Shown here: positions 18,259-21,319 of the stretch, piece after piece
Position numbering within the stretch: position 1 is the first letter of the stretch
Layout: each line of letters starts with the position of its first letter
Source: an uncultured Microbacteriaceae bacterium
GTDB lineage: Bacteria; Actinomycetota; Actinomycetes; Actinomycetales; Microbacteriaceae
Direction of reading: 5' to 3'
Length of the DNA stretch: 64,000 nucleotides
Assembly: GCA_903940225.1 (NCBI GenBank)
Contig: CAJAKC010000007.1
Span: forward strand, 28,108-92,107
The notes under the pieces: model-generated
The model's database searches: none
Told to the model about the DNA's origin: nothing
Seen by the model: the letters and a program-made list of their open reading frames with translations, nothing else
Position numbers and translations under genes: made by a program

Positions 18259-19803
18259 GTGTCAGGGAACATGCCCCCGGTCATCCGACCCGAATTCGTC
18301 AGCCCACGCTCGGTTGAGTTGCTGGCGGACGAACTGGGACTCAGGATTGTTGGAAACGCGCGTGGGGTAGAGGTAACCGGGCTCACCGTCATGACGCGCG
18401 AGGTTCGGCCAGGGGACATGTTCGTCGCAGTTCGGGGTGCGAGTCGCCACGGCGCTGAGTTCATTTCGGAAGCCGTTGCGAATGGAGCGGTTGCGGTTCT
18501 CACCGACGACGAAGGCGCCACTATCGCTGTGGATTCGCCCATCCCACTTGTTGTGGTCAATTCACCGCGCGAGGCGCTGGGTGAGGTTTCACGCTGGGTG
18601 TATCGAACCGATGACAACGCCCCGCAGTATTTCGGGATTACCGGCACCAACGGTAAGACGTCGACCGCCTACCTACTCGAGGGAATCCTCAATCAGCTCG
18701 GCGTCACGACGGGTCTCTCGTCAACCGCCGAGCGCCACATAGCGGGAGAAGTCTTTGTTTCCCGCTTGACGACCCCCGAAGCGAGCGAAATGCATGCCCT
18801 CATCGCCCGGATGAAGGAACGCGATGTTCGAGCGGTTGTGATCGAGGTTTCAGCGCAAGCGCTCACGCACAATCGAATTGCGGGAATCATCTGCGACGTT
18901 GCTGCCTTCACCAACCTGTCGCACGATCACCTCGATGATTATCCGGACATGGAAGCGTATTTCCAGGCAAAACGACAGTTCTTCGAACCTGAGCACGCAT
19001 CCCGCGGTGTCGTCTCACTCGATTCCTCGTGGGGAGCCCGTGTCGTCGACGAATCGCATATTCCCGTCACAACCATCTCGTCAATGGGGGATCCAACGGC
19101 GCAGTGGCACGTCGAGATTACCGAAGACGATCCCGCCTACACGGGATTCCGGTTGACCGGCCCCGAGGGAGTCACCATCGAGACGCGCGAACCGGTGATT
19201 GGACGCCACATGGCGGCAAACGCGGGGCTCGCCATCGTCATGCTCATTGAGGCGGGCTATTCACCGGACGCGATCAATCAGGCACTCGAACGCGACGGCG
19301 GAATTCGCGCGTACCTTCCCGGTCGCACGGAGAAGGTATCGGGGGAGAGCGGACCCAACGTGTACGTTGACTTTGGCCATTCGCCCGACGCGTTCGAGCA
19401 CACACTCGCGGCGGTTCGCCGATTCACGACGGGTCGAACGATCATGGTGTTCGGGGCGGACGGCGACCGTGATGCGACCAAGCGTTTCGACATGGGTCGA
19501 GTGTCCGCCGAGGGGTGCGACGTGCTTGTGATCACCGACCACCACCCGCGATTTGAAGACCCGGCGTCGATTCGCGCGCAGTTGCTCGTCGGCGCGCGCT
19601 CCGTTGACAACGGCCCAGAAATACACGAGGTCTCGCCACCCGAAGAGGCGATTCGCTTCGCGGTGTCGCTCGCGGGCGAGGGGGATTCGATTCTGTGGGC
19701 AGGGCCCGGACACCAGAACTATCGCGATATCAGGGGAGTGCGAACCGAGTATTCTGCGCGTGATCTTGCCCGAGCAGCGCTGGCCGAAGCAGGTTGGGCG
19801 TGA
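18259..19803 (+). CDS. murE: UDP-N-acetylmuramoyl-tripeptide synthetase, MurE-like
   Basis: MurE N-terminal domain, GITGTNGKTST, AYFQAKRQFF; C-terminal domain present but with variant motifs. Confidence 0.88.
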   Translation: MSGNMPPVIRPEFVSPRSVELLADELGLRIVGNARGVEVTGLTVMTREVRPGDMFVAVRGASRHGAEFISEAVANGAVAVLTDDEGATIAVDSPIPLVVVNSPREALGEVSRWVYRTDDNAPQYFGITGTNGKTSTAYLLEGILNQLGVTTGLSSTAERHIAGEVFVSRLTTPEASEMHALIARMKERDVRAVVIEVSAQALTHNRIAGIICDVAAFTNLSHDHLDDYPDMEAYFQAKRQFFEPEHASRGVVSLDSSWGARVVDESHIPVTTISSMGDPTAQWHVEITEDDPAYTGFRLTGPEGVTIETREPVIGRHMAANAGLAIVMLIEAGYSPDAINQALERDGGIRAYLPGRTEKVSGESGPNVYVDFGHSPDAFEHTLAAVRRFTTGRTIMVFGADGDRDATKRFDMGRVSAEGCDVLVITDHHPRFEDPASIRAQLLVGARSVDNGPEIHEVSPPEEAIRFAVSLAGEGDSILWAGPGHQNYRDIRGVRTEYSARDLARAALAEAGWA

Positions 19804-20225
19804 CAGCACCGGCAACTCTCGCCGACGGCACGATCGTGCTTGACGGCTCCTCGATCACGGACACCGACGCAATTCGCGACCTGCAGTCCGACCTCGCCGA
19901 GTGGCGCCTTCGCGGGCACCCGACAATTCATGTCGCGGGAGCGTTCGGTGCAGGCTCGGGTTTCGATGCGATGGATGCACTCGGTCGGCGCACCGTCAGA
20001 CTCAACATCGGCACGCTCATCGTGATCGGCGCCGATGCGCGAGTGATGTATCTCGCCGCCGAGCTCGAGGGTTCGTGGGACGGGGAGTCGCTCCCTGTCG
20101 CTGATATCAACTCCGCATACGATGAACTGAAACGATTGCGGGGAGACGGCGTTGTCATTCTCGTCACCGGTTCGACTGACGGAACAATGCCCGAACTGGT
20201 GGAACGACTGAAGGAGAGCGCGTGA
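19800..20225 (+). CDS. MurF C-terminal-domain-like ORF (catalytic domains absent)
   Basis: 141 aa ORF in the murF slot. [32 protein letters not shown]...[19 protein letters not shown] resembles the MurF C-terminal domain; no N-terminal domain and no GTNGKT P-loop. Confidence 0.7.
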
Positions 20226-21319
20226 GATCTCTGCTCTTGGGTGCGGGATTCGCCCTGTTCTTCACGCTGTTCGTTACCCCGGCGTTTATGCGGCTCTTCG
20301 AGCGAATTGGCTGGGGCCAGTTCATTCGCGACGACGGGCCTCAAAGTCACCACACCAAACGGGGCACTCCGACCATGGGTGGCATCGTCATCATTTTCGG
20401 AGCGGTGCTCGGATACTTTTTTGGACACGCGATCGACGCGTATCCGCCCTCAGCCAGCGCGCTGCTCGTCATTTTCATGATGGTCGGTATGGGTCTCGTC
20501 GGCTTCATCGACGACTTCACAAAAACACGCAAGCAGCGCAGCCTTGGTTTGGGTGGTTGGGCCAAGATCGCCGGGCAAGCAGCGATTGCCTCCGCATTCG
20601 CGCTTCTCGCCATCAATTTCCCTGACGCCAACGGAATTACGCCGGCGTCCCTTGCCATTAGTGCGGTTCGCGACATTCCGTGGTTGAACTTTGCTCTCAT
20701 CGGCGGCGGGTTTGGAATCGGACTTTTTGTTCTCTGGGTCAATCTCATCGTTGTTTCGACCGCAAACGGAGTCAACGTTGCCGATGGTCTCGACGGTCTC
20801 GCGTCAGGAAGCGCGATTCTTGCGCTCACCGCCTACGTCGTCATCGGATTCTGGCAATTCAACCAAAGCTGTTTCAGTCTCGTGCTTGATCCTGAGGTCC
20901 AGTACAAGTGTTACGAGGTGCGCGACTCTCTCGATCTCGCCGCTATCGCTGCCGCGATCGCCGCTAGCACCGTTGGCTTTTTGTGGTGGAACACGTCGCC
21001 GGCACAGATCTTTATGGGCGACACGGGGTCGCTCGCACTCGGTGGAGCGCTGGCCGCACTCGCCATTCTGACGCGAACCGAAATTCTCATCATCCTCATC
21101 GGCTCACTGTTTGTCATTGTTGCTGGCTCGGTCATCATTCAGCGGTTGTATTTCAAGCTGACGAAGGGCAAACGCATCTTCCTCATGAGCCCACTGCATC
21201 ATCACTTCGAACTCAAGGGCTGGGCGGAAATCACGGTCGTTGTGCGGTTCTGGCTCATCGCAGCATTCGGTGTAGCCGTCGGCATAGGCATCTTCTACCT
21301 CGAATGGGTGAGCCGCTGA
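20222..21319 (+). CDS. mraY: Phospho-N-acetylmuramoyl-pentapeptide-transferase
   Basis: [47 protein letters not shown] motifs. Confidence 0.96.

Follow-up and report, generated by a model that had tools for sequence, protein, structure and literature searches.

The murE-mraY locus

The window, a stretch of 64,000 nucleotides, derives from a Microbacteriaceae genome of 1.37 Mb that is 94.5% complete and assembled in 49 contigs. On its forward strand, an intact murE (18,259–19,803; 514 aa) is followed by a 141-codon open reading frame (ORF; 19,800–20,225) and an intact mraY (20,222–21,319; 365 aa), and the dcw cluster around these genes is otherwise ordinary. The ORF, labeled psMurF here, occupies the murF position, as had been claimed in the original prediction from the DNA alone. 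The two four-base overlaps described there are exact: the murE stop and the psMurF start share GTGA at 19,800–19,803 (+), and the psMurF stop and the mraY start share GTGA at 20,222–20,225 (+). The start codon of psMurF is GTG, and the sole alternative is a TTG six bases upstream. Codons 90–97 (20,067–20,090, +) encode an EGSWDGES loop, and the pattern EGSWxGES does not vary among the 22 psMurF proteins aligned, which come from eight genera.

Descent from MurF domain 3 and loss of catalysis

In BLASTP searches, psMurF is 54% identical over 68 aa to the full-length MurF of a sister genus (E 3e-18) and 38% identical over 118 aa to a second sister-genus MurF. When scanned as a single sequence, it scores far under the cut-off of both Pfam Mur_ligase_C (14.3 bits) and NCBIfam TIGR01143 (13.4 bits, positions 347–417). 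With a profile of psMurF proteins, the top solved structures are those of MurF (4ziy, 6e-14; 1gg4, 1e-13). The AlphaFold2 model of psMurF has an alternating α/β fold (pLDDT 93.5, pTM 0.89), and its best Foldseek matches are again MurF (2am1, 2.9e-6; 1gg4, 7.4e-6, with a TM-score of 0.77 and 2.1 Å). The suggested comparison of a predicted structure with MurF domain 3 thus returned clear similarity rather than none, and the likeness to the MurF C-terminal domain that had been read from the sequence is borne out by BLASTP, the family profile, and the model. Homology, fold, and position between murE and mraY show that psMurF truly descends from domain 3 of MurF. It also matches the structure of MurT, the member of the Mur ligase family found in the MurT-GatD complex (PDB 7q8e, 6h5e).

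Descent, the dcw slot, and the domain 3 fold are common to psMurF and MurF (TIGR01143; PDB 1gg4, 2am1, 4qf5, 3zl8), and the EGSWDGES loop is shared with the MurF of Microbacteriaceae, whereas domain 1, domain 2, and the YNANP-type, AELG, and KSS motifs are absent from psMurF. The N-terminal domain 1, which binds UDP-MurNAc-tripeptide, has no counterpart in the 141 aa, and throughout the genus the canonical MurF profile aligns with domain 3 alone (positions 353–455 of 469 in the relative G061), so the missing substrate and ATP-binding domains had been correctly recognized. The P-loop of domain 2 (TGSNGKT) is absent in the genus, and it is degraded in larger remnants that retain the domain 2 region. 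In an alignment with 27 canonical MurF proteins of the family, NDAYNASPDS, AELG, H58, and KSS are invariant or nearly so in the canonical enzymes and scrambled in psMurF; the motif replacements first noted were right, with a different ten-residue stretch in place of the NDAYNASPDS of sister genera and TGS in place of KSS. Residues conserved in both groups are G47, G62, V66, R67, L68, G77, A80, E90–W93, E96, A106, and L121. EGSWxGES is present in 100% of the 22 psMurF proteins and EGSWDGES in 23 of the 27 canonical enzymes, so that in this alignment the loop is somewhat more conserved in psMurF than in the MurF enzymes. Judged from its sequence, psMurF cannot be a ligase by itself.

Retention under purifying selection

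Of the 15 genomes of the genus, 14 carry psMurF (13 relatives, 47–70% identical), and the genome that lacks it is 61% complete. All 14 copies are free of stop codons and have the same slot and the same overlap with mraY. Since stop-free copies recur in the same slot in 14 of the 15 genomes, the ORF is not a product of chance. By the Nei-Gojobori method, dN/dS of psMurF is 0.055–0.14 for pairs with dS below 0.9, compared with 0.04–0.11 for murE and 0.02–0.05 for mraY, and psMurF evolves faster than its neighbors. More distant pairs give 0.2–0.38 for psMurF, but at these distances dS is near saturation. The relaxed selection, frameshifts, or stops of a pseudogene are not found. psMurF is kept by purifying selection and is not undergoing ordinary decay, and the earlier view that it is retained rather than decaying is supported by the dN/dS proposed as a check (about 0.06–0.14 in close pairs), by its presence in eight genera, and by the invariant loop.

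A slowly decaying pseudogene, left open only for translational coupling between murE and mraY, might nonetheless be envisaged: four-base overlaps occur on both sides in the source genome and many relatives, and the graded sizes of the remnants resemble progressive erosion. Coupling, however, would not preserve amino acids, as is evident here in the low dN/dS, the invariant EGSWxGES, and the confident fold, and in other genomes with the replacement ligase described below murE and mraY are directly adjacent or overlapping. This explanation is quite improbable.

The MurF2-Ddl2 cassette

A search of the source genome with the TIGR01143 profile found no canonical murF elsewhere. Its best match is a 546-aa Mur ligase (G000:C12:51803-53440), labeled MurF2 here, which reaches 194–195 bits over positions 64–403 only and so stays under the curated cut-off of 288.6 bits. 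The N-terminal 210 residues of MurF2 are modeled as long, largely hydrophobic helices in place of domain 1 (AlphaFold2, moderate pLDDT of 80). The Mur ligase ATPase and domain 3 motifs are intact, namely the P-loop TGSYGKTSTK, GEAHLER, AK.EI, DDTYNSNP, and a motif of the VTPGMxELG type, and the best PDB sequence matches of MurF2 are MurF. MurT likewise has no canonical domain 1. MurT lacks membrane helices, however, and has GatD as its partner, whereas MurF2 is membrane-anchored and lies beside Ddl2. A MurT-like Mur ligase is also encoded in the source genome (L005:1501-2328; G000:C33:27069-27896), suggesting lipid II amidation in this organism.

MurF2 belongs to a three-gene cassette at a locus separate from the dcw cluster, in the order α/β hydrolase, MurF2, and Ddl2, the last being our label for the Ddl-like ATP-grasp ligase of the cassette. 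The top model for Ddl2 is the general D-Ala-D-Ala ligase and not the D-Lac/D-Ser type, with scores under every cut-off. The order is retained in the MurF2-positive Microbacteriaceae, where one contig stops before the third gene, and it recurs in Propionibacteriaceae, Nocardioides, Frankiales, and most Acidimicrobiia contigs; a more distant form exists in Poribacteria, Oscillospiraceae, Obscuribacterales, and Aquibacillus. A few of the cassette contigs checked gave no Ddl2 match. The hydrolase (L001:170-895) opens the cassette in almost all lineages checked. The cassette genomes of Poribacteria, Oscillospiraceae, Obscuribacterales, and Aquibacillus (L127, L134, L141, L162) have no MurF over the family cut-off and may point to a more widespread alternative Ddl-MurF route.

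MurF and MurF2 are nearly exclusive of one another in 195 Microbacteriaceae genomes. MurF scores over its cut-off in 174 and MurF2 occurs in 21; 173 genomes have MurF only, 20 have MurF2 only, one (G100) has both, and one (G155; 94% complete, 5% contaminated) has neither. Fisher's exact test gives p = 5e-25, a descriptive value given that the genomes are related. The figure of 174 is the tally given by the search tool; two genomes (G094 and G192) have a best single match under the cut-off, yet their slot holds MurF and not a remnant-sized ORF. Canonical Ddl follows nearly the same split: it scores over its cut-off in nine MurF control genomes and in G094, G192, G155, and G100, and in only one other MurF2 genome among those tested (G154), which is flagged as 5% contaminated. 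In the genome with both enzymes, the slot is occupied by psMurF, and an additional murF-alr-ddl cluster lies at another locus; the MurF of that cluster lacks the EGSW loop. This cluster (about 3763–7708 of L201, G100:C1:1904000-1916000) is possibly an acquired accessory cluster. Across the class, a MurF2 search with a strict cut-off returned only 3 of 395 genomes.

From the exclusion pattern and the linkage to Ddl2, it is most likely that the formation and addition of D-Ala-D-Ala have passed to the MurF2-Ddl2 cassette. The original prediction that another route would be needed fits this result best in its option of a murF elsewhere, although the candidate is a distant, membrane-anchored ligase with its own Ddl and not a canonical murF; the genome search that it proposed for MurF and ddl found MurF2 and Ddl2 and no canonical murF. 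Its option of a split MurF is disfavored, as no separate piece with domains 1 and 2 was found in the genome, where the other MurF-profile matches are MurE, MurD, MurC, the MurT-like ligase, and FolC. An altered MurE, an altered MurD, or a different stem peptide is conceivable but not needed. Loss of a canonical murF to incomplete assembly (94.5%) is unlikely, since the same state is seen in G061 (99% complete, two contigs) and in single-contig genomes of other genera.

It is doubtful that the product of the cassette ends differently, for example in D-Ala-D-Ser or a depsipeptide, which would have left canonical MurF useless and led to its loss; the joint displacement of Ddl and MurF would agree with this, but Ddl2 scores best against the general D-Ala-D-Ala model and not against D-Lac/D-Ser (under every cut-off), and the retention of psMurF is left unexplained.

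Distribution and history of the remnants

A psMurF-type remnant was found in all 21 MurF2-positive genomes of the 195-genome sample, spanning eight genera and about 141–337 aa. Remnants are about 141–142 aa in the source genus (g1), 150–216 aa in g28, 173–177 aa in g39, 214–216 aa in g67, 301–313 aa in g35 (about 217 aa in G100), 309 aa in g42, 323–335 aa in g73, and 337 aa in g76. Their main matches to the canonical MurF profile start at different positions (about 184–223, 254, 327, and 353 of 469). Two further metagenome-assembled genomes, UBA6152 and F1-120, also carry a remnant. The hydrolase-MurF2-Ddl2 cassette of Acidimicrobiia, Propionibacteriales, Frankiales, and some Bacillota has the same gene order and a related Mur ligase, but outside Microbacteriaceae the genomes checked showed no psMurF next to murE, save for one Frankiales genome with MurF2, where the remnant is about 115 aa with the loop EGSWGEES. 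Acidimicrobiia have MurF2 with murE adjoining mraY and no remnant, and so do two genomes from a different family (f4) within the order of the Microbacteriaceae. Because such outside relatives can have murE directly beside mraY, MurF2 can work without the remnant. Nocardioides sp. YR527 (L194, G208:C12:37000-46500) encodes both MurF2 and a canonical MurF, the latter well away from the dcw cluster; between its murE and mraY no remnant was seen.

The MurF2 proteins of Microbacteriaceae form one clade (support 99/97). In the MraY tree, psMurF carriers do not form one clade (AU p = 2.7e-32), and at least five changes are forced. Two genera, g39 and g76, contain both states. The gene tree of domain 3 does not resolve the history and allows one origin of psMurF, perhaps due to attraction of fast-evolving rows. 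The MraY tree, the mixed genera, and the differing breakpoints speak against a single origin, which the domain 3 tree would permit, and make a repeated origin of psMurF likely. Our preferred reading is that MurF2 spread within the family and that several separate reductions of MurF followed.

Proposed role of psMurF

We regard the following explanation, taken as a whole, as fairly probable. The canonical MurF in the ancestral dcw slot would have been reduced to domain 3 with loss of its catalytic residues, while a MurF2-Ddl2 cassette at another locus would have taken over the formation and addition of D-Ala-D-Ala. psMurF would then serve as a non-catalytic docking or regulatory subunit, in which R67, G77, A80, EGSWxGES, and A106 may preserve a contact of the old MurF, for instance with MurE, MraY, or MurG. 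Such docking could keep the soluble steps linked to MraY though the catalyst is now MurF2.

A docking or regulatory role with these candidate partners appears most likely because the conserved loop is separate from the active-site motifs that were lost, psMurF is coupled to both murE and mraY, and MurF contacts have been published. In Bordetella pertussis, MurE and MurF are fused, MurG is described as a scaffold, and MurF forms complexes with MurE and MurG, and a two-hybrid contact between MraY and MurF is cited in connection with Caulobacter work (PMC6420597). The MurF of the B. pertussis system is an active enzyme, however, and the relevant passages of that source describe no retained dead MurF domain (PMC6420597). 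Given that MurF2 occurs without psMurF in other lineages, the role of psMurF is therefore lineage-specific or one of fine-tuning.

psMurF may instead assist MurF2 or Ddl2 as a subunit or an allosteric activator, so that MurF would be functionally split. Every one of the 21 sampled Microbacteriaceae genomes with MurF2 has psMurF, as does the Frankiales MurF2 genome, and MurF2 lacks a domain 1 of its own. MurF2 does, however, have its own domain 3, Acidimicrobiia, Propionibacteriaceae, and family f4 have the cassette but no psMurF, and psMurF and the cassette genes lie at separate loci, which makes this proposal rather unlikely. We give still less credence to the idea that psMurF binds a ligand, as a sensor of a precursor or nucleotide, and thereby regulates MurE or MraY; the preserved α/β fold and the coupling of the gene to murE and mraY would suit this function, but domain 3 has lost its catalytic-site motifs.

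Building on the docking role, a broader and more tentative possibility is that MurF has been repeatedly reduced after takeover by the cassette, with EGSWxGES as a required docking site in a Mur ligase-MraY complex, so that catalysis and scaffolding have been separated.

Implications

Non-orthologous replacement of essential enzymes is a known kind of event, as is the keeping of dead enzymes as scaffolds. In the open-access literature searched, no precedent was found for MurF loss, a MurF pseudoenzyme, an alternative MurF, or Microbacteriaceae MurF, and no earlier report was found in open-access papers of a domain 3-only MurF that persists in its operon alongside a membrane-anchored MurF2-Ddl2 pair.

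MurF, an essential cell-wall enzyme that is also a drug target, is commonly regarded as present in all walled bacteria. In these genomes its place has apparently been taken by another Mur ligase accompanied by a dedicated Ddl, in a cassette also present in other phyla. The retained dead remnant is a natural separation-of-function experiment that points to a part of MurF being important apart from catalysis, and with one small protein it becomes possible to test the long-standing question of whether the Mur ligases and MraY form a physical complex.
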